A DNA stretch of 33,052 nt from positions 1 to 33,052 of the forward strand of contig QHXW01000075.1 in the NCBI GenBank assembly GCA_003223115.1, given 5' to 3'. The position numbers and the translations under genes are program-made. The notes under the pieces were generated by a model that was not told where the DNA came from, did not search any database, and was given only the letters and a program-made list of their open reading frames with translations. The DNA comes from Acidobacteriota bacterium (GTDB taxonomy: Bacteria; Acidobacteriota; Terriglobia; Bryobacterales; Bryobacteraceae). This document shows, one piece after another, positions 5,586 through 14,561 of this stretch (position 1 is the first letter of the stretch; every line of letters starts with the position of its first letter).

Positions 5586-6374
5586 ATGAAAAAGTTCGTG
5601 CGGGTCAGCGCCGCCCTCATCTGCTTTGTCGCCATCGCGTCCGCGGTGGATTGGAAAGCGCTGAAACCGGAAGGTTACGTCAGCGATTTCGGGCGCGTGA
5701 TTGATCCTCAGAGCAAATCTGCGCTGGAGCAGTACTGCACCAGGGTGGAGCAAGCCACCGGCACTCAGATGGCTCTGGTGACCTTACCCACGCTCGAGGG
5801 CGAGCCCATCGAGGATGTGGCAAACACGATTTTTCGCGTCTGGGGCGTCGGGCATAAAAGCAAAGACGACGGGATAATGCTGCTGCTGGTCGTCAACGAT
5901 CGGCGCAGCCGCATGGAAGTTGGCTATGGCCTGGAGCCCCTGATCCCCGATGGTTTTGCCGGCAGCATTCTGCGCGAAATGCGGCCCGCTCTCCGGCAGG
6001 GCCAATACGGTGAGGCCATCATGGCTGCCGCGCAAACCATCGGATCGACCGTCGCCAAGGCCAAGAATGTCTCGCTCGATGCGCAACTGCCGCGCCGCGT
6101 GCATCGCTCCACGGGTAATTCCATTCCGTGGCCCATCATCCTGGGTGGATTGTTCATCCTGCTCTGGCTCATGCGGGCCGGCGGCCGGAGAGGCGGCGGT
6201 GGGGGGGGCGGTTTCCTTACCGGCATGATTCTGGGCAATCTGCTTGGTGGTGGTGGCGGTTTTGGCGGCCGCTCGAGTGGTGGAGGATTCGGCGGCGGAG
6301 ATTCGGGCGGCGGCGGCTTTGGAGGATTCGGCGGGGGAGATTCGGGCGGCGGCGGCGCCTCGAGCGACTGGTGA
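5586..6374 (+). CDS. TPM-domain (YgcG-like) exported membrane protein with Gly-rich tail
   Basis: A 262-aa protein. It has an N-terminal signal peptide (MKKFVRVSAALICFVAIASA), a TPM domain at about residues 35-150 with YVSDFGRVID, DDGIMLLLVVNDRRSRMEVGYGLE and IPDGFAGSI, then a membrane helix at about 180-197 (IPWPIILGGLFILLWLM), then a low-complexity tail of Gly, Ser, Phe and Asp ending ASSDW. The tail is coded by a repetitive GGC-rich stretch. TPM proteins often sit beside lemA genes, as here with one gene between. Their molecular role is uncertain; roles in envelope stress and photosystem repair are known for distant relatives. Confidence 0.92.
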   Translation: MKKFVRVSAALICFVAIASAVDWKALKPEGYVSDFGRVIDPQSKSALEQYCTRVEQATGTQMALVTLPTLEGEPIEDVANTIFRVWGVGHKSKDDGIMLLLVVNDRRSRMEVGYGLEPLIPDGFAGSILREMRPALRQGQYGEAIMAAAQTIGSTVAKAKNVSLDAQLPRRVHRSTGNSIPWPIILGGLFILLWLMRAGGRRGGGGGGGFLTGMILGNLLGGGGGFGGRSSGGGFGGGDSGGGGFGGFGGGDSGGGGASSDW

Positions 6375-6443
6375 TGTGTCTGGGGTTACGCCACGCCCCG
6401 CGCGCGCCTCCGTTCAGATTCGCTGATAAGATCAGGTGACTGC

Positions 6444-7154
6444 ATGGAAAGAGCACTGAATCAATTGCTCGCAAAGGTGACAAAGACCTTCGGCGACCGC
6501 CTGGTCTCGGTGGTGCTCTATGGTTCGGCGGCCGTCGGCGATCACCATGAAGGCTTTTCAGACTTGAACGTGATCTGCGTCCTGCAGCAGATTTCGACGC
6601 GGGAGCTCGAAGAATCCGAATCCGTCTTCCGCTGGTGGCGTGAGCAGAAAAATCCGGCGCCACTGCTGCTTAGCGAGCATGAGTTCCAGACGTCTAGCGA
6701 CTGCTTCGCCATCGAGTTTCATGACATCAAGAGCAACCATCGCATTTTGCAGGGCAAAGACATTGTCTCTAATCTGGTGGTGGATGATTCGTTCTACCGC
6801 GCTCAGGTGGAACACGAGTTGCGCTCCAAAGTGCTGCGTTTGAGGCAAAAGGCTTCGGGAGCGCTTTCCGATCAAGACGTGTTGCGCAGGTTGCTGGTGG
6901 ATTCAATCTCGACGTTTTGTGTCCTGCTTCGGCACGCGTTGATTCTCCACGGAGTTGAGACGTCATCTAAGAAGCGGGATGTGGTCGAGCGGGCTCATGA
7001 AAAATTCGGCATCGATCCGGCGCCGTTCCGCAGCATCCTGGATGTTCGCGAGGAGCGCATCAAACCGAAGGAATTGGAACCCCGGCCCGTTCTGGATTCG
7101 TATCTCAAACAGATCTCAATTGTGATAGATGCTGTGGACCGCCTGGAAAAATAG
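6444..7154 (+). CDS. Nucleotidyltransferase-fold protein, function unknown
   Basis: A 236-aa protein. The N-terminus has a nucleotidyltransferase signature: VVLYGSAAVGD (residues 23-33) followed by FSDLNVICVL. In active enzymes of the fold the second element is usually SD-x-D, but here the second acidic position is Asn (SDLN), so catalysis is doubtful. The rest is helical and Arg/Leu-rich, like the HEPN-type helical partner domains in this superfamily, but I cannot assign it firmly. It lies between the TPM and lemA genes on the same strand, 42 bp from lemA. The start ATG 6444 has no strong ribosome-binding site. Confidence 0.75.
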   Translation: MERALNQLLAKVTKTFGDRLVSVVLYGSAAVGDHHEGFSDLNVICVLQQISTRELEESESVFRWWREQKNPAPLLLSEHEFQTSSDCFAIEFHDIKSNHRILQGKDIVSNLVVDDSFYRAQVEHELRSKVLRLRQKASGALSDQDVLRRLLVDSISTFCVLLRHALILHGVETSSKKRDVVERAHEKFGIDPAPFRSILDVREERIKPKELEPRPVLDSYLKQISIVIDAVDRLEK

Positions 7155-7196
7155 AACGGGCCGTGGTCCCGCCCAACCGGAGGAGTCAAGAGGATT

Positions 7197-7763
7197 ATGA
7201 AAGTTCTAATCATTGTTCTGATTGTGCTGGTGGTCGCCGGCCTCGTGTTTGGCGGCAAATATGTCGGCATTCGCAACGATCTCGTTACGCGTAAAGAAGC
7301 CGTAAGCGCCTCCTGGTCCCAGGTGGACGTGGCCTTGCAGCGCCGCGCGGACCTGATTCCCAACCTGGTCGAGACCGTCAAGGGTTATGCCAAGCACGAA
7401 CAAGGCGTAATGGATGCCGTCGCCAATGCGCGAGCCGCACTGCTGGGCGCCAAAACGCCTCAGGAGAAAATTGCAGCCAACGCGCAACTGGATGGCGCTA
7501 TCGGCCGGCTGCTGGTGGTGGTCGAGAATTACCCCAATTTGAAGGCCAACGAGAACTTCCTGCGCCTTCAGGACGAGCTTGCCGGCACGGAGAACCGCAT
7601 TGCCATAGAGCGGCGCAAGTACAATGAGAAAGTTCAGGAGTACAATACGCAGATCCAGCTATTCCCGAACAACATTGTGGCGTCTCTTTCCGGCTTCACG
7701 CGCGACGATGCATATTTCAAGACCGAGCCTGGCGCTCGCACCGCGCCGAAAGTGGTCTTCTAA
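7197..7763 (+). CDS. lemA: LemA-family membrane protein
   Basis: A 188-aa protein with a short N-terminal segment and one membrane helix (KVLIIVLIVLVVAGLVFG), then the LemA helical bundle: WSQVDVALQRRADLIPNLVE, TVKGYAKHE, AAIGRLL-type core (here GAIGRLLVVVENYPNLKAN), and LQDELAGTENRIAIERRKYN. The length is typical. A clear ribosome-binding site (ggagg at about 7180) precedes ATG 7197. LemA and TPM proteins are frequent neighbours and both are membrane-anchored, which suggests a shared envelope role, though the biochemical function of LemA is not known. Confidence 0.95.
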   Translation: MKVLIIVLIVLVVAGLVFGGKYVGIRNDLVTRKEAVSASWSQVDVALQRRADLIPNLVETVKGYAKHEQGVMDAVANARAALLGAKTPQEKIAANAQLDGAIGRLLVVVENYPNLKANENFLRLQDELAGTENRIAIERRKYNEKVQEYNTQIQLFPNNIVASLSGFTRDDAYFKTEPGARTAPKVVF

Positions 7764-7784: not shown

Positions 7785-9251
7785 ATGAGTACCCCCATAG
7801 CCAAGAGCACTCCTACCTTCGCGAATTACATCAATGGAGAGTGGGTCGAGAGCAGCCAGACATTTGAAAAGCGCAACCCGGCCGATACCGATGAGCTGGT
7901 GGCGTCGTTTTCGACGGGCAGCGCCCAGGAAGTCGCGAGCGCCGCAAACGCCGCGGCCGCCGCATTTCCGGCCTGGTCCTCGCTCAACGCTCCGGCGCGA
8001 GGCAATATTTTGTTCAAAGCCGCTGACCTGCTCGAGCGGCGCTTCGAATCAATCGCGGCGGAAATGACGCGCGAAGAGGGCAAGACTCTGCCCGAGTCCA
8101 AAGGCGAAGTCCGCCGCTCCATCAATATCTTCCGCTACTTCGCCGGTGAGGGCTCGCGTCTGCCCGGCATGCTGGTGCCCTCGGAACGGGATCGCGTGCA
8201 CATGTTTGCCATCCGGAAACCCATCGGCGTCATTGGTCTGATCACGCCCTGGAATTTTCCGAGCGCCATCCCCGCCTGGAAGCTCGCGCCGGCGCTGATC
8301 TGCGGCAATACAGTGGTCCTCAAGCCCGCGTCCGCGGCGCCTTTGAGTTCCTGGCGTATCGTTGAAGCCCTGCACGAAGCCGGAATCCCGCGAGGTGTCG
8401 TCAATTTTGTCGCCGGTCCGGGCGGAGAACTGGGAAACGCCCTGGTCCAGGCCAAGCCCCTCAAAGCCCTTTCTTTCACGGGTTCGTGCCAGATCGGCAA
8501 CCACCTGCATGACCAGGCTTCGAAGCGCCGCCTGCGCATCCAGCTCGAAATGGGCGGGAAAAATCCAACCATCGTTCTGGCCGATGCCGATTTTAAATCC
8601 GCCGTCGAACACGTGGTCAATGGAGCGTTCTTTTCAACTGGCCAGAAGTGCACCGCCACGAGCCGCGCCATTGTTGAAGACGGCATCTATGACAAATTTC
8701 TCGAGGCGCTCGTCGACCGGACACGCAAACTGAAAGTCGGCAACGGGATGGAGCCCGGTGTGGACATAGGGCCGCTGGTCGATCAGGCCCAGATGGATAC
8801 CGTTCTGCGTTACATCGAGATCGGCAGAAAAGAAGCAGGCGCTCCCAAAATTGGGGGCCGCCGATTGACAGAGGGCGGATTGGCTAAAGGATATTTCGTG
8901 GAACCCACCGTCTTCGCCGATGTCACGGAGTCCATGACCATCGCTCAGGAAGAAATTTTCGGTCCCGTGCTCGCCGTCATGCGCGCCAAGAACTTTGAGG
9001 ATGCCCTGCGCATCGCCAATAATATTCCGTTCGGCCTTTCGGCCTCCATCCAGACCACTAATTTGTCGCACGTATTTGATTACGTCTATCAAATGGAGGC
9101 GGGCCTTCTCACCGTAAATTTGCCGAGCGCCGGCGTCGAATACCAGTTGCCGTTCGGTGGAACCAAGGAGTCGAGTTTCGGCCCCAAAGAGCAGGGTCCT
9201 GCAGCGCTCGAATTTTATAGCGACTACAAGACAGTCTATCTGAAATATTGA
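7785..9251 (+). CDS. NAD(P)-dependent aldehyde dehydrogenase, probably 2-oxoglutarate semialdehyde type
   Basis: A 488-aa soluble ALDH. Visible catalytic parts are N157 in TPWNFP, K180 in VVLKPAS, E255 in LEMGGKNP and the nucleophile C289 in STGQKCTAT. Oxidation of 2,5-dioxopentanoate (2-oxoglutarate semialdehyde) to 2-oxoglutarate is suggested by the GQKCTATSRAIV signature and by the FAH-family dehydratase gene 62 bp downstream, the normal partner in oxidative pentose or sugar-acid degradation. Sequence alone does not prove the substrate; succinate-semialdehyde dehydrogenase activity is an alternative. The gene is intact and starts at ATG 7785. Confidence 0.93.
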   Translation: MSTPIAKSTPTFANYINGEWVESSQTFEKRNPADTDELVASFSTGSAQEVASAANAAAAAFPAWSSLNAPARGNILFKAADLLERRFESIAAEMTREEGKTLPESKGEVRRSINIFRYFAGEGSRLPGMLVPSERDRVHMFAIRKPIGVIGLITPWNFPSAIPAWKLAPALICGNTVVLKPASAAPLSSWRIVEALHEAGIPRGVVNFVAGPGGELGNALVQAKPLKALSFTGSCQIGNHLHDQASKRRLRIQLEMGGKNPTIVLADADFKSAVEHVVNGAFFSTGQKCTATSRAIVEDGIYDKFLEALVDRTRKLKVGNGMEPGVDIGPLVDQAQMDTVLRYIEIGRKEAGAPKIGGRRLTEGGLAKGYFVEPTVFADVTESMTIAQEEIFGPVLAVMRAKNFEDALRIANNIPFGLSASIQTTNLSHVFDYVYQMEAGLLTVNLPSAGVEYQLPFGGTKESSFGPKEQGPAALEFYSDYKTVYLKY

Positions 9252-9313: not shown

Positions 9314-10165
9314 ATGCGAATCGGACAAATCAGGCAGGAAGGCCGCACCGTGGCCGCTGTTTTCGAGGACGGCATGGCGCGCCCCATTCCGGGCCACACT
9401 GTGGGTGATTTGATTCGGCGCTCGGAAGTGGAATCCATTTCCCTTGCGCCGCTGGCCGAAAGTCTGGCGAGCCGCCATCCTGAACCCGCCACACCGCTGG
9501 CGCCCATCCACCCGGTCGAAGTCTGGGCTTGTGGCTGTACCTATGAAACCAGCGCCAGCTTTCGCGACGCCGAACACGGCACGCGCGAGGGAATGTACGC
9601 TTACGTCTACCGCAACGCGCGCCCCGAGATTTTTTTCAAGGGAACGGCCCGCGTCTGCGTCGGTCCTGGCCAACCCATCGGATTGCGAGCCGATTCCAAA
9701 TTCCCCGCTCCCGAGCCGGAATTGGCGGTGGTGCTGGGTAGCCGCGGCCGCATTCTCGGGTACACGCTCGCAAACGATGTCTCCGCCTGGGATATCGAGC
9801 GTGAAAATGCGTTGTACCTGCCGCAGTCAAAAATTTTCTCCGCCTGTTGCGCGCTCGGGCCGGTCATCGTGACAGCCGATCAATTGCCTGACCCGTACAA
9901 ACTGGAAATGACCTGCACCATCACGCGCAGCGGATCGCCCATTTTTGAGAGCCGCGTTTCTACTTCCAGGCTGCATCGCAAATTCGAAACGCTGGTGGAA
10001 TTTCTTTTGCGCTCGAACCCCGTGCCCGCGGGGTCAGTTCTCCTGACCGGAACCGGAATTATTGTCACCGAAGAGGCAGCACTGGCTCCAGGCGATGTGG
10101 TTTCCATTCGCATTCCGGAAATCGGCGAGCTCTCCAATCCCGCCGCGGTTGTACACTTACACTAG
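9314..10165 (+). CDS. FAH-family hydrolase/dehydratase, probable 2-keto-3-deoxy-pentonate dehydratase
   Basis: A 283-aa member of the fumarylacetoacetase superfamily. The metal ligands are visible as E134 and E136 in PEPELAVVLG and D155 in TLANDVSAWDIE. The string ENALYLPQSKIFSACCALGP (residues 164-183) matches the ENxLYLPQAK...CALGP pattern of 2-keto-3-deoxy-arabinonate/xylonate dehydratases rather than of fumarylacetoacetase. Such enzymes make 2-oxoglutarate semialdehyde, which the preceding aldehyde dehydrogenase would oxidise. The start is ATG 9314. The stop TAG (10163-10165) is followed at once by a group II intron end in the opposite strand. Confidence 0.9.
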   Translation: MRIGQIRQEGRTVAAVFEDGMARPIPGHTVGDLIRRSEVESISLAPLAESLASRHPEPATPLAPIHPVEVWACGCTYETSASFRDAEHGTREGMYAYVYRNARPEIFFKGTARVCVGPGQPIGLRADSKFPAPEPELAVVLGSRGRILGYTLANDVSAWDIERENALYLPQSKIFSACCALGPVIVTADQLPDPYKLEMTCTITRSGSPIFESRVSTSRLHRKFETLVEFLLRSNPVPAGSVLLTGTGIIVTEEAALAPGDVVSIRIPEIGELSNPAAVVHLH

Positions 10166-10242
10166 GAGCCGAGTCGCCTCGAGGAATTTCACCCCGAGGC
10201 GCTCACAGATTCCGGACGTGAACCTCTCGATTCATCCGGCTC
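10166..10242 (-). ncRNA. Group II intron domains 5 and 6
   Basis: On the minus strand, 10242-10209 reads as a 34-nt domain 5: GAGCC start with the AGC triad, an upper stem TGAATC/GGTTCA closed by a GAGA tetraloop, and a two-base CG bulge on the 3' side before TCCGG. The pairing partners of the triad are A rather than the usual U, which may mark decay. Domain 6 follows: CGCCTCG pairs with CGAGGCG, then an unpaired A at 10174 (the branch point), then CTC pairing with GAG. The 3' splice site would lie about 8 nt further, within a few bases of the FAH stop codon. Confidence 0.6.
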
Positions 10243-10470
10243 GTGCCACCGAATGAAGGCTGCCGCCTTCCGCCCAGACCAGTCGGTTCTTCCCGTTTCC
10301 GGTTGACCTATCGATCCCGACGCCGGTGACCTGCCCCCTTCCACGGGCATTACCCCGCTTCTCCGCTACTACGAACAATCCGCCCCCAGCCCGCGCCTTG
10401 GTACTTTCGACCTCACGGTTCTGCCGCTTGTGTCTTTTCCCTTACCATCGCCAGCCGAGTTCTCAAGTTC
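10166..10470 (-). mobile_element. 3' remnant of a group II intron, no intact reverse transcriptase
   Basis: The minus strand ends in recognisable domains 5 and 6 (separate entry). The 230 nt upstream of them (10243-10470 in plus coordinates) would be domain 4 or rearranged intron. They hold no reverse-transcriptase or maturase motif in any frame I read. No GUGYG-type 5' end is seen where the permease remnant begins near 10473, so the element is truncated or rearranged. The left edge is well supported by the structure; the right edge is a guess set by where permease homology starts. Confidence 0.5.
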
Positions 10471-10472
10471 CG

Positions 10473-10733
10473 TAACGAGAGCCCGGACAACATCGTCGGG
10501 TTGATGGTCCGACAAGGAATGGAGCTCGCGGCGATGGGCATTGTGGGCGGCTTGATCGGCGCAATAGTACTGACTCGCTTGATGGCCAGCCTGCTGTTCG
10601 CCGTCAGCGGAATCGACGCAGTTACATTCAGTGCGGTAGTATAGATTCTGGCGGCCGTAGCGCTCTCGGCCACCGTGATTCCGGCGCGCCGAGCCACCAG
10701 GGTAGATCCGATCGTGGTCCTGCGGGAGAAATA
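10473..10733 (+). pseudogene. C-terminal remnant of an ADOP-type ABC permease
   Basis: In one frame the segment reads SPDNIVGLMVRQGMELAAMG, then a membrane helix (GGLIGAIVLTRLMASLLFAV), SGIDAVTFSAVV, an in-frame TAG, ILAAVALSATVIPARRAT and RVDPIVVLREK with a stop at 10731-10733. This is the last transmembrane part and the conserved PARRATRVDP tail of acidobacterial MacB/FtsX-like permeases. The remaining 700 or so residues are absent and the internal stop shows it is dead. It begins directly after the intron remnant. Confidence 0.8.
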
Positions 10734-10847
10734 GGTCCGGGTAGGATCGACCCATGCGTGCTGCAACATACTAGGCCGAGTGCCGATTGCGGCTGTATGG
10801 GCAGAACCCGTGGATCTGCCAAAAACGGCGGTTCCGCGCCACAAGCG

Positions 10848-10882: not shown

Positions 10883-11296
10883 CTACCAGAATCTGTACCA
10901 GGTCTTGGCTCGATTGCCGGCCGTTGCGACGCACTGTTCGACAGGCTCTCCCGCCAGCGCGGCCAATGGATTGGCAACAAAAAGCAGGTGTGCGCAAGTT
11001 TCGCCGTATCGCTCGGACACGTGCCGGTACGCGTCCACGAGCACCACGTTTTCGTGGTAAAGATGGAAGTCGCATCCGCGACGGATCCGCACCGCGCCAC
11101 CCGACGCAGCGACAAGCTGCGAGATTCTCTCGTCCACCACGCCGGAATGGAAGCCATATTCGAGATTCGCGTGCTGTGTGGCCACAATATCGGTGGTGCC
11201 GGATGCCGCGGCCATGTGGACCATGCCTACGGATTCCTCGAGTGACTCGGGTCCGTCGTCGAGGTCAGGCAGAATATGACAGTGAATGTCCACCAC
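10883..11296 (-). pseudogene. CpsB/YwqE-type PHP tyrosine phosphatase with internal deletion
   Basis: A 137-aa reading frame from GTG 11296. The N-terminus matches CpsB/CapC phosphatases of capsule and exopolysaccharide control: MVDIHCHILPDLDDGPESLEES up to RGCDFHLYHEN near residue 83, written here in two parts as DIHCHILPDLDDG and CDFHLYHEN. It then jumps to what is normally the C-terminal end, DAYRHVSERYGE and LFVANPLAALAGEP. About 120 residues of the catalytic core, including the later metal-binding His residues, are gone, yet the frame stays open. The usual ATPH motif reads ATQH. The product would be inactive as a phosphatase. It lies 33 bp after the 67-aa gene. Confidence 0.8.
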
Positions 11297-11329
11297 GGCC
11301 GGTTGTTCAACCAGTGGCGGAAAACGGTG

Positions 11330-11533
11330 TCAAATCTCGGGGTAAAATTCGAAAAAGGCGTCGAGCGACTGCATCAACTGCTTGCGGATTTCTTTTTCAG
11401 TCGCGCCTTCGATGAGATGCAGGGCAACGGAGGCTTTGCGGCCGTTTTTCAGAACGATTGAACCTTCGCCCACGGAATCCAGTTCATCGCCAGGCAACAG
11501 GTGAAGGCCGTAGACCAGCGCCAGCTTGGCCAT
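11330..11533 (-). CDS. Small conserved-looking protein, function unknown
   Basis: A 67-aa soluble protein (MAKLALVYGLHLLPGDELDS at the start). No known domain is recognised. Its ATG overlaps the stop of the preceding DUF948 gene by one base (TGATG), so translation is probably coupled. That overlap, and an acidic-basic helical C-terminus (EKEIRKQLMQSLDAFFEFY), support it as a real gene. It belongs to the minus-strand cluster YtxH - DUF948 - this gene - CpsB remnant. Confidence 0.65.
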   Translation of the reverse strand: MAKLALVYGLHLLPGDELDSVGEGSIVLKNGRKASVALHLIEGATEKEIRKQLMQSLDAFFEFYPEI

Positions 11534-12039
11534 CAGATGAACATCTCTTCGTCTTGCGTGGCGTGATCCACCGATTCACGCCGGCCATGGGCGTAAACCG
11601 AAAGAGCGGCGCGCAGTCCGTTCACCAGGCCATTGACCTCGCGGGCCGGACGTGTGATGGCGGTCTTCATCGTGTGACTCGCGTTCTCGAGTTGCTCCAC
11701 CGTCTGGTCCACTGCCCCATCGATGCGGGCTATTTGGGCACGCGCCCGATCGCCGACTTCTTTGACCACCTCTCCCAGACGGTCCACCTGTTCGCGCACC
11801 GTCTTCACGGTCTCTGAGGCGTTCTCGATGGCCGCGGAGAGTTTCGGACCGTTCTCGTCTACAAAGCGGCGAACTGTGCCGAGAATAGGCGCAGCGGCCT
11901 CGAGCAGTGGCGTTAGCTTTTCCTCCGAGGCCTTCGCTACCCGGTACATTCCATACACAAAGGCCGCCTGCACGATGAAGGCCATGGCTGCCAGTACTAC
12001 GCCGATCACTACGATCCAGCGGAAAGCATCTTCAGACAT
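11533..12039 (-). CDS. DUF948-like membrane-anchored coiled-coil protein
   Basis: A 168-aa protein with one N-terminal membrane helix (about residues 8-31, IVVIGVVLAAMAFIVQAAFV) and a long helical region rich in Ala, Glu and Val (AAIENASETVKTVREQVDRL) expected to form a coiled coil. Pattern and neighbours match DUF948 proteins, which usually lie beside YtxH genes, as here with an 8-bp gap. Function is unknown; general-stress and envelope roles are suggested for the family. It ends in an acidic tail (DEEMFI). Confidence 0.8.
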   Translation of the reverse strand: MSEDAFRWIVVIGVVLAAMAFIVQAAFVYGMYRVAKASEEKLTPLLEAAAPILGTVRRFVDENGPKLSAAIENASETVKTVREQVDRLGEVVKEVGDRARAQIARIDGAVDQTVEQLENASHTMKTAITRPAREVNGLVNGLRAALSVYAHGRRESVDHATQDEEMFI

Positions 12040-12047
12040 AGAAGATC

Positions 12048-12356
12048 TTAGCGGGTCATCTGTCCTTCCGGCGGCATGGGTTGTCCCACGGTCTCGCGAT
12101 AGGCCTGTTTGCCCGCTTCCACTGCTTCCGACAGAGTGTCCTTTTGGCGGCCGATGACTTCTTTGCCGCGCTCAATGATGTCACTTGCGCTATCGCGGAG
12201 TTCTGAGCTGCGCCGCTTCAGGTACTCTTTGCCTTCGTCGGCTTTGTCCTTCAGCAGCCCCCTTGTCTCCGCACCGGATTTTGGAGCGAATAGCAACCCC
12301 ACGCCAATGCCCACCCCAAGTCCCAGAAAGAAGCTGGCCATTCCATCTCGATCCAT
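12048..12356 (-). CDS. YtxH-domain protein
   Basis: A 102-aa protein. ATG 12356 was chosen because ggag precedes it closely and because the sequence then begins just before the family's membrane helix (FFLGLGVGIGVGLLFAPKSG). The motif LLFAPKSGAETR is diagnostic of YtxH. The rest is charged helix (KADEGKEYLKRRSSELRDSA). YtxH proteins are small and often stress-induced, with unknown mechanism. It is first in the minus-strand cluster and divergent from recX, with a 137-bp intergenic region. Confidence 0.9.
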   Translation of the reverse strand: MDRDGMASFFLGLGVGIGVGLLFAPKSGAETRGLLKDKADEGKEYLKRRSSELRDSASDIIERGKEVIGRQKDTLSEAVEAGKQAYRETVGQPMPPEGQMTR

Positions 12357-12493
12357 TTTGGTCTCCGTTCCCGGTTCGGCTTTCGGAAACAAGCACGAAA
12401 AGCCGTCCGCAGTCAGTTTCAGTATACTCCGCAGCGCAGTGCCACGGGTTCGCTGATCACGGCTGCGGTAAACTTCGGTACAGTCAATCAACC

Positions 12494-13048
12494 ATGCGCA
12501 AAAACTCCACGCGAGCGTCGCGGCTGCTGGACTCGGGCGGCCTGTGGGAATTATCGCTCAAGCTGCTGGGAGCGCGAGCCTGCACCATGGGCGAATTGCG
12601 CGCCAAGCTCCGGCTCAAAGCGGCTGCTGCTCAAGATGTCGAAACCACCATTGCGCGGCTAAAAAGTTGCGGATATCTCGACGACCGCCGGTTTGCGGAA
12701 AGCTTCACGGCGGCTCGCCTTGAAAATCAAGGCCTCGGGAAACGCAGAGTCATCCAGGACCTACGGAAGCATCGCATCGCGCCCGCGTTGGCAGAAACCA
12801 CTGTCCAAAAGACGTACGAAACCGTGGACGAAGTCGGCTTGATCGAAAGCTACATCCGCCGAAAATTCCACCGTTCGGGTGTTGGCGCCCTTTTTGCCCA
12901 TGAAAAAGACCTGGCTTCGGCGTACCGCCGGCTGTTGCGCGCCGGTTTTGGCGGCGGAAACATCATCCGGGTGCTGAAACGCTTCGCGGCGAATCCGGAC
13001 CTAGTGGATCAGTTCGAGGAGGAGCCTCAAAATGAGGGCGATGGGTGA
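12494..13048 (+). CDS. recX: Regulatory protein RecX
   Basis: A 184-aa RecX, which binds RecA filaments and restrains recombinase activity. It shows the three-helix repeats of the family: ELSLKLLGARACTMGELRAK (residues 17-36), RLKSCGYLDDRRFAESFTAA with LGKRRVIQDLRKHRI, and the C-terminal LASAYRRLLRAGFGGGNIIR. The start is ATG 12494; open frame continues upstream but is not RecX-like. recA is not nearby. The gene is intact. Confidence 0.92.
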   Translation: MRKNSTRASRLLDSGGLWELSLKLLGARACTMGELRAKLRLKAAAAQDVETTIARLKSCGYLDDRRFAESFTAARLENQGLGKRRVIQDLRKHRIAPALAETTVQKTYETVDEVGLIESYIRRKFHRSGVGALFAHEKDLASAYRRLLRAGFGGGNIIRVLKRFAANPDLVDQFEEEPQNEGDG

Positions 13049-13637
13049 TGCTCGATCACGCCTGACCTTTGCAGTTTGGCGAGCACCATTACTCTTCTAA
13101 CTCTAGCTACTAGCTAGTTCTCCATGTCTTGACGACAGCACGAATCATGAAAATGGGTGCCAGATCGCGATATGCTAACAGAGCTGACGTTAACTTCTCG
13201 GTGGCCCTCTCGAGAGAGGCGTGACTGGAATCTCCAGACTGTCGCTTGCGCCGCTGGTGGGGTACCCGGAGATCCGTTGACGGTCACACTCACCCTGGTA
13301 AGGGAGGGGAGAACTGTGCTTTGTGTACCTGCGCACAGTGCCACTTACGCCCCTGGCCATTAACCCAAGCTCTTCCAACGCTCCGGCATTTTATTTTCGA
13401 GGGAGCCTTCTTAAGTGCGTTGGCAATAGCAGCGGCGAAGGCTTCGGGCTCGGTTTCGCGCTCTGGGGTACCCCGTCCGGTATATTCTCCTTGGAAACCT
13501 GTTCTGTTGTCGTATCAATCACCTCTTTTAAGTGGTGGTATGACACACACATAATTCTGAGAAAACCACGGGCATGAGCGGCACTTCTTTGACGTTACCG
13601 CACGCAAATGAGCGATGGAGAGAGTCCCTCGACCGCT
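13049..13637. other. Stretch without a supported gene
   Basis: About 590 bp between recX and a permease scrap. Short open frames on both strands have no recognisable domain and no ribosome-binding site. The region includes short imperfect repeats of ctag (ctagctactagctag near 13104) and is probably decayed accessory DNA. Confidence 0.5.
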
Positions 13638-13727
13638 GGCCAACGACAGCACCACTACGAAGTTCAGGCCAGGGGTCTTACGCAACATGCGGAGTGCATA
13701 CCGGAGATCTTGCAGCATCGGGTTCAT
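13638..13727 (-). pseudogene. N-terminal scrap of an ADOP-type ABC permease
   Basis: From ATG 13727 the minus strand reads [20 protein letters not shown] and then [10 protein letters not shown], the N-terminal segment and first membrane helix of acidobacterial ADOP permeases. The family would continue LGIGANTAIF, but after 30 residues homology stops (SGRGTLSIA). The rest of the gene is absent here. Confidence 0.75.
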
Positions 13728-13953
13728 GGTGTCTCTTACAGAACGGATATGCGTCCATGGTAGTGCATGTCGCCACCTCGGCGGCACGCCGCGCATCACG
13801 AATCGATCTGATGGTCGCTCTTTCGCGCTAATTTAACTGTCTTCAACTTACTCAGAGACTGCTCCCAAACGTCGCCAAGCATCTAGCCCGTTCCTAATCA
13901 TCGTTGTCCGCATGGCTTGACGGCTATACGCCAATGGCGGATAATCAAAGCAC

Positions 13954-14286
13954 GTGGAGTTGATCGAACTTCCACTTTTTCGAGGCAGATCACGGCTCTG
14001 CTCGGCGATGAAGATTACGGGGCGTTTCAGTCCCGGCTGGCAGCAAATCTAGGTCTCGGCGCTCTCATTAAGGGTGGCGGCGGAATACGGAAGATTCGTG
14101 TGGCGATAGGTTTGCGTGGAAAGCGCGGGGGCGCTCGCGTGATTACTACTGGGCGGTCCGAAAAGATCTGATTCTGCTGCTCTATGCATACCCGAAGAAC
14201 GCGTCGGCTGATCTGACTCCGAGGCAGGTAGCGCAGCTCGGTAGGGTAGCCAAGGAGGAATTCAGGGATGAAGCCGAAAATGTTTG
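13954..14286 (+). pseudogene. HigB/RelE-type toxin with two frameshifts
   Basis: Three frames joined give one toxin of the HigB/RelE superfamily, an mRNA-cleaving ribosome-dependent RNase. VELIELPLF runs to the T-run at 13976-13980. SRQITALLGDEDYGAFQSRL, GGGGIRKIRVAIGLRGKRGG and ARVI run to 14144. YYWAVRKDLILLLYAYPKN and LTPRQVAQLGRVAKEEF run to TGA 14284-14286. Each join needs one extra T, so both changes are single-base losses. The end overlaps the antitoxin start by 19 bp, as is common in toxin-first pairs. The toxin cannot be made as written. Confidence 0.82.
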
Positions 14287-14561
14287 AAGCGCTGCTGGAA
14301 AGCGTGCGCGAAGGCGGAGCCATTCTCCGCGGCCAGAAGAAACCCTCGCGCCGGTTTGAAGTCGGGCCTTCCGGGATACGGGCGATTCGCGAACGGACCA
14401 GCCTCTCACAGTCGGAGTTCGCGCGCTTGATTGGCGTTAGCGTCAAGACCCTACAGAACTGGGAGCAGGACCGGCGCCGTCCAACTGGACCGGCAGCCAC
14501 GCTGTTGAAGATCATCGCGTACGAGCCACGGCTGGCGGTAAGGGCGATTCATCAGACATGA
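14268..14561 (+). CDS. HigA-like antitoxin, XRE-family helix-turn-helix
   Basis: A 97-aa DNA-binding protein. A strong ribosome-binding site (aaggagg) precedes ATG 14268. The helix-turn-helix lies at about residues 42-75 (IRAIRERTSLSQSEFARLIG and VSVKTLQNWEQ), followed by RRRPTGPAATLLKI, which is typical of HigA/NadS-type antitoxins. It would bind the toxin and repress the shared promoter. The frame is intact although the partner toxin is broken. Confidence 0.88.
   Translation: MKPKMFEALLESVREGGAILRGQKKPSRRFEVGPSGIRAIRERTSLSQSEFARLIGVSVKTLQNWEQDRRRPTGPAATLLKIIAYEPRLAVRAIHQT

Follow-up and report, generated by a model that had tools for sequence, protein, structure and literature searches.

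A 5'-truncated relic of an ORF-less group II intron antisense behind a fumarylacetoacetate hydrolase family gene, and the intron family behind it

Immediately behind the stop codon of a fumarylacetoacetate hydrolase family gene (FAH) of an Acidobacteriota bacterium, the minus strand bears what a preliminary description, made from the letters alone, had taken for the 3' end of a dead group II intron. What this piece is, how it came to lie there and whether the adenines in its domain 5 (D5) mark it as dead are the questions that the locus raises. Positions refer to the window, the entire 33,052-nt stretch of contig QHXW01000075.1 (C390 below) of assembly GCA_003223115.1 (genome G000), which contains the following features:

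9314 to 10165, plus strand: FAH, an open frame convergent with the intron (Pfam PF01557, E 6.7e-28)
10168 to 10484, minus strand: 5'-truncated ORF-less group II intron relic (87% identity to the 3' half of the 639-nt intron G000:C55:1911-2549; alignment with 15 other copies; covariation)
10463 to 10484, minus strand: last 22 nt of domain 1 (D1) plus linker, the rest of D1 being gone (alignment columns 374-396)
10382 to 10462, minus strand: domain 2 (consensus structure with compensatory changes; name assigned by domain order)
10331 to 10378, minus strand: domain 3 (consensus structure and covariation; name assigned by domain order)
10245 to 10330, minus strand: domain 4, 86 nt, no ORF (consensus structure; the RT-encoding relative L253 has its RT gene in the same interval)
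10208 to 10242, minus strand: domain 5, 35 nt, with AGC triad, GAGA loop, 2-nt CG bulge and AA opposite the triad G (Rfam RF00029; alignment columns 645-680)
10171 to 10204, minus strand: domain 6 with a bulged A at 10174 (Rfam RF00029, fold and consensus structure)
10168 to 10170, minus strand: 3' terminal GGC of the intron, the 3' exon starting at 10167 (aligned 3' ends and empty sites of relatives)
10486 to 10734, plus strand: piece of an ADOP permease gene, C-terminal part, interrupted by an internal TAG (matches 722-772 of the 803 positions of NCBIfam TIGR03434, E 1.7e-10; reading frame; homologues)
10883 to 13048: block CpsB-DUF948-YtxH-RecX, inverted relative to the order after FAH in several relatives (family matches and locus comparison)
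13515 to 13832, minus strand: piece of an ADOP permease gene, N-terminal part, on the far side of the inverted block (matches 2-31 of the 803 positions of NCBIfam TIGR03434, E 8.1e-7)

The minus strand from 10484 to 10168 corresponds to the last 317 nt of a group II intron of about 640 nt when whole. The Rfam model Intron_gpII (RF00029) matched minus strand 10244-10168 over its entire length with 35.4 bits (E 4.5e-5, at a permissive threshold), while a default Rfam scan of the window listed no match, the gathering score of 40 lying above the 35.4 bits of the relic. The covariance-model search of this strand that the preliminary description had proposed therefore does find a match, though with an Rfam score under the family cut-off. 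The 80-nt D5/D6 region of the minus strand folds at -38.9 kcal/mol, compared to -26.85 (sd 3.32) in 200 shuffles, none of which was as low. In addition, a D4-D6 covariance model built from 12 relatives, excluding the window copy, C55, L165 and L168, gave a single window match with E values up to 10 allowed, at 10330-10168, with 153.4 bits and E 2e-33. An intron 3' end antisense to FAH is thus borne out, and the AGC triad, the GAGA loop, the CG bulge and the unpaired A at 10174 are all as they had been described; D5 is 35 rather than 34 nt long, with one extra A. The 3' boundary does fall within a few bases of the FAH TAG, two bases past the stop codon, but the exact end is 10168 and not 10166, and intron homology does not stop at 10470 but spans 10484-10168, adding D2 to D4 and the last 22 nt of D1. 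The predicted branch-point A at 10174 lies six bases before the last intron base.

The preliminary description had further noted the lack of a reverse transcriptase (RT), and indeed none of the seven RVT_1 matches of the genome is on C390; its "ORF-less or truncated" turned out to be both at once, a 5'-truncated copy of an ORF-less family. A truncated RT-encoding intron is ruled out, as D4 is complete and full-length relatives have the same short D4. From the six-domain order with covarying helices that is present for the family, the window copy retains D2 to D6 only and the 5' end is absent. Since most of D1 and the 5' splice site are lost, it cannot splice as a normal intron; judged from sequence it is dead, and it probably has no function today. 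In itself, the copy is an unremarkable relic.

A search of the window's own genome for full-length copies, likewise suggested at the outset, returned the 639-nt copy at C55, 87% identical to the relic and with neither an RT gene nor a long ORF. This copy interrupts a transposase-like gene (named by eye) in antisense orientation, and a paralogue of this transposase on contig C253, which has no intron and has its exons joined, marks the insertion site. Further family pieces lie on C531, C300 and C504, and a D5/D6 piece on C158 looks nearer to RT-type introns, so that the genome holds one full-length copy, the window piece and fragments. Its RT-type introns, found by Rfam on C300, C498, C67, C325 and others, were rejected as a source, given that their D5/D6 belong to another lineage.

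How the 5' half was lost can be approached from the junction, where intron homology stops at 10484 and ADOP sequence, from about codon 722, starts at 10486. Matches to FAH were obtained in 46 of 61 genomes searched, the window's own included, and 29 FAH loci, out of 47 further places found, were compared. None of the 29 matches the intron part when compared with the window's downstream sequence. In nine of them RecX lies downstream of FAH and convergent with it, within flanks of up to 1.5 kb (farther off in L074), and the window's CpsB-DUF948-YtxH-RecX block is oriented opposite to those relatives; in G002, the nearest relative with FAH, the block was not seen at FAH. Using alignment rows as queries at E up to 0.5, the missing intron half gave only short scattered matches in the window (best E 0.009, 30 bases). 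The relic stands at one edge of the apparently inverted block, and the simplest reading is therefore that a rearrangement took the 5' half of the intron together with the front of ADOP.

As side observations on this neighbourhood, the CpsB/CapC match spans only positions 1-80 of 234, and the gene may be truncated; an aldehyde-dehydrogenase-like gene (7785-9251, named by eye) precedes FAH and adjoins it in most of the 29 relatives' loci (blastn); and plus strand 13887-14561 carries a decayed toxin-like frame followed by an XRE-type helix-turn-helix frame, by eye a HigB/HigA-like pair.

Loss of the 5' half could also have accompanied insertion, by an early stop of reverse transcription and end-joining of the short cDNA to an ADOP fragment that already existed. 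The loss of the 5' side only, with an exact 3' end, is as in incomplete reverse transcripts. However, this junction also interrupts the ADOP gene, and the block downstream has the opposite orientation to that in several relatives; one rearrangement could explain both the cut and the inversion, whereas truncation at insertion requires a second event, and we regard it as unlikely. Nor do we favor the idea that the 3' piece was retained for a function, for instance as a structured 3' end or terminator of the FAH mRNA on the opposite strand. Its position two bases behind the FAH stop codon and its strong hairpins (computed for the minus strand) would suit such a role, but the piece is antisense, has no match in any of the 29 relative FAH loci and is conserved as an intron family at other sites, which makes this explanation highly improbable. 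With a probability of roughly 0.85, we instead propose that the relic derives from an ORF-less family mobilised in trans, one copy of which landed antisense behind FAH, later underwent rearrangement and is now dead and truncated on its 5' side. Most likely, a full-length copy would have landed two bases behind the FAH stop codon, a step that we infer, as none of the 29 relatives' FAH loci has a full-length intron. A later deletion or inversion would then have joined the end of D1 to the middle of the ADOP permease gene, removing the remainder.

The family itself was delineated by a pattern scan for the D5/D6 motif in a collection of 84,980 species, which gave 79 matches in 78 stretches, 74 of them with enough flank to classify. 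An RT frame of at least 250 aa ending no more than 300 nt upstream was found for 15 of these 74 (in Bacteroidota, Propionispira, some Acidobacteriota and others), some of the others being too short upstream to tell. RT-less introns of about 640-670 nt occur in both Acidobacteriota and Alphaproteobacteria, organism names being record titles and several records metagenome assemblies. Five RT-less loci, L146, L129, L132 (Methylocystis), L189 and L145, align to the C55 intron from position 1 or 3 to 640 at 74-80% identity, and seven more, L140, L194, L166 (Bradyrhizobium), L165, L144, L153 and L168, from about position 32-41 to the end at 62-73%. At E 1e-8, intron matches were present in 18 of 19 genomes (the window's own and the source genomes of 20 selected loci), with at least one copy spanning from position 40 or earlier to 640 in 11 of the 19. 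Among 200 genomes of the window's own taxonomic family, 29 had a match at 1e-6, many of them weaker, and seven (G000, G009, G059, G485, G496, G553 and G546) one of at least 100 bits. When the C55 intron was compared by blastn with 396 genomes of the phylum, only two candidates per genome being scored, a match was obtained in four, including the window's own.

An alignment of 16 sequences and 720 columns was assembled. Out of 19 candidate full-length copies, L146 and L153 (5' end unclear) and L238 and L239 (near-duplicates) were dropped, and the start of L168 was set by hand. The predicted consensus structure comprises 180 pairs, 111 of which are changed on both sides, and 95.8% of the cells are paired across the 16 sequences. 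The 111 two-sided changes compare with a mean of 56.1 in shuffled alignments, none of 500 being as high, and with 25-43 for slid structures.

The most informative set of copies is that of Bradyrhizobium erythrophlei GAS478 (8.65-Mb contig), with seven full-length 642-nt introns, five of them identical and two at 99.5%. They lie in related transposase genes (the 3' exon matches Pfam rve_3; the 5' exon piece has no family match), L234 and L238 on their 3' side only, as their 5' flanks differ. Joining the exons restores the transposase frame, ...NPLWG|APR(I/V)HGEL..., in five of the seven, an indirect sign of splicing. The joined-exon 24-mer of L236 is present uninterrupted at one place in the loci examined, an empty site; those of the other six had no uninterrupted match there. 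These introns read UUGUG...CUCGGC, and the preceding base is mostly G but C in L238 and A in L245. Both the empty sites and the copies with C or A in front place U at the intron start, ruling out a 5' end of GUUGUG. Group II introns usually start with GUGYG and thus with G; the C55 and B. erythrophlei copies, whose ends are set by empty sites, start with UUGUG instead. For the other alignment rows the start was taken from a motif search allowing UUGUG or GUGUG (L140 has GUGUG), and for Bradyrhizobium centrolobii, Methylocystaceae and a few other rows it is set by motif only. As a separate observation, the bases directly before the full-length copy L238 (GGTCCACTCGGC) match the 3' end of the intron itself exactly, which may reflect a tandem arrangement or an insertion at a 3' end.

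That the family does not home as introns, and that the identical GAS478 copies were spread by transposase elements or gene conversion, would be in line with the location of all seven in transposase genes that are related, though for two copies this holds only on the 3' side, and with three pairs whose flanks are 93-98.5% identical. The latter involve L236, L237 and L239, three copies that may have multiplied along with the transposase element or through gene conversion. However, the 100%-identical introns L233, L235, L236 and L237 include pairs whose flanks are only 72-82% (5') and 85-88% (3') identical, and in the adjoining 200 bases identity between copies with identical introns falls as low as 72-74% (5') and 85% (3'). 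Moreover, one copy, L234, has an unrelated 5' flank, and other members occupy unrelated sites with matching ends. The pattern of introns and flanks fits intron homing better than copying with the transposase, and we consider spread by such other means quite unlikely.

The GAS478 copies also bear on the claim that adenines opposite the catalytic triad mark the window copy as dead. All seven have an AA-type D5; the GGAAUC strand of the relic is found in these near-identical copies, five of them identical, and in the full-length C55 intron. The existence of an identical multi-copy set argues against decay of the AA-type D5. We therefore uphold the conclusion that the relic is dead, based on the lost D1 and 5' splice site, but not the reason given for it: an A opposite the triad is not by itself a sign of death, unless the copies spread by other means. 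The standard GGUUC is seen in an eighth long GAS478 copy, which belongs to another subtype (L194/L242); of two partial copies, L243 has A and L244 has AA. Among the 74 classified matches, with classes judged by the last bases of the D5 strand and a few of the D5s decayed, the strand opposite the triad reads GGU (or GU) in 49, GGA in 14, GGAA in nine and otherwise in two. In the 16-row alignment, the base opposite the triad G is AA in seven rows, A in four, U in four and N in one.

On a tree built without D5, which is small and has three of 13 inner branches well supported, the AA, A and U states need eight changes, compared to a mean of 7.0 with shuffled labels (the N row set apart). Two B. 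centrolobii copies grouped with 100/99 support have different states, A and AA. As eight changes are no fewer than with shuffled labels, the D5 states are not tied to a single clade, and their distribution could stem from either relaxed constraint or scattered decay. The variation also affects detection. With RF00029, the AA copies scored 35.4 (window), 28.4 (C55), 39.7, 37.4, 32.9 and 40.7 bits, five of six falling below the cut-off of 40, while five of five A copies scored above it (42.0-52.3) and the one U copy tested reached 55.9. One survey, in its accessible text, gives a D5/D6 threshold of 24 bits (PMC8919778); all six AA copies pass this value, and single members may therefore already stand in existing lists.

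A candidate source of the protein required for movement in trans is found in GAS478 as well. This genome has two copies of an RT-encoding intron (L253 and L254) with identical genes for a 442-aa RT/maturase (TIGR04416, PF00078, PF08388). The L253 RNA is collinear with the ORF-less intron, at 68.5% identity over 508 positions, with the RT gene in place of the short D4, followed by D5/D6. Its D5 has the standard strand GGUUC, and it apparently starts with GUGUG, judged by eye from the exon reading frame. Splicing and reverse splicing of the family's RNA into DNA would be carried out by the RT/maturase of such related introns elsewhere in the cell, and by analogy with Thermosynechococcus elongatus (PMC2882425) homing in trans is likely.

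RTs at least 50% identical to that of L253 were found in six of the 19 genomes, among them G468, G469, G456 and G458, with fragments only in G465 and G472. At E 1e-30 no match was obtained in the window's genome, G464 or G467, and the remaining genomes have RTs of 33-45% identity. Where no RT reaches 50% identity, either a more divergent one would have to act as helper or the assembly would have to lack the helper gene. As no RT of the matching class was found in the window's genome, the family looks extinct there. As an observation of its own, L123 (MAG gp1 AA121, 563-1897) is an RT-encoding intron with a 445-aa RT and an A-type D5 (GGATC), the only one of the 23 A or AA matches directly preceded by an RT frame.

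ORF-less introns moved in trans are already known from Thermosynechococcus elongatus, whose TeI3 introns are, according to the available text of PMC2882425, mobilised by the intron-encoded proteins of related introns. The introns described there resemble the present family in being small, in having no RT, the ORF being lost from D4, and in occurring in many copies, some of them inside other group II introns (PMC2882425). Correspondingly, D4 contains no ORF in our family (86 nt in the window), and near-identical copies occupy separate sites in GAS478. In contrast, TeI3 is described from one genome, in which it arose from a single intron (PMC2882425), while members of the present family occur in Acidobacteriota as well as Alphaproteobacteria, their triad G often faces A or AA, the best-defined copies start with U, and mobility is predicted here from sequence. 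What is new is thus the two-phylum spread, the altered D5 and the 5' U. The searched literature, including the accessible portions of PMC4424553, PMC8919778, PMC2882425 and PMC12350094, yielded no description of this ORF-less family, which is weak evidence of absence, with supplements and most subscription papers outside the scope of the search.

Rfam group-II-D1D4-2 (RF01999) scores L253 and seven of 11 ORF-less loci above its cut-off, the other four being without that part of D1. Compared to the RF01999-type introns L253/L254, the ORF-less family is collinear in D1-D3 and D5-D6, with the 442-aa RT/maturase being carried in D4 of L253/L254. Full-length copies are thus still found by this D1 model although most AA copies miss the RF00029 cut-off.

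We put even odds on the broader proposal that one ORF-less, trans-mobilised family has spread between Acidobacteriota and Alphaproteobacteria, with D5 having repeatedly changed from U to A or AA, and with a 5' U, while still splicing and homing. What makes the relic interesting is its family: introns that are small and ORF-less, occur in two phyla, carry a changed active-site helix and have a 5' U. If the family splices, its naturally occurring variants can be used to ask to what extent the D5 active site, a feature shared with the spliceosome, is required. The presence of identical copies in a named strain together with an RT-encoding relative makes the question of movement in trans directly testable.

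Nested arrangements were also seen. The nested ORF-less and RT introns of Methanosarcina (Dai and Zimmerly 2003, as summarised in the accessible part of PMC4424553) likewise home into group II introns; they are archaeal and are set beside the present family by description only. L129, L127, L146 and L250 are preceded by an apparent D5 end of another, RT-type lineage (..GTGGTGTGGCAG or ..GTGGTGCGGCAG), and these D5-like 5' exons suggest that the four are nested in D6 of other introns, as twintrons. In L146, at about 6038-7423, one copy is nested in another at about position 306, and in L127, at about 251-1806, some 0.9 kb of other DNA interrupts the intron at position 183/184.
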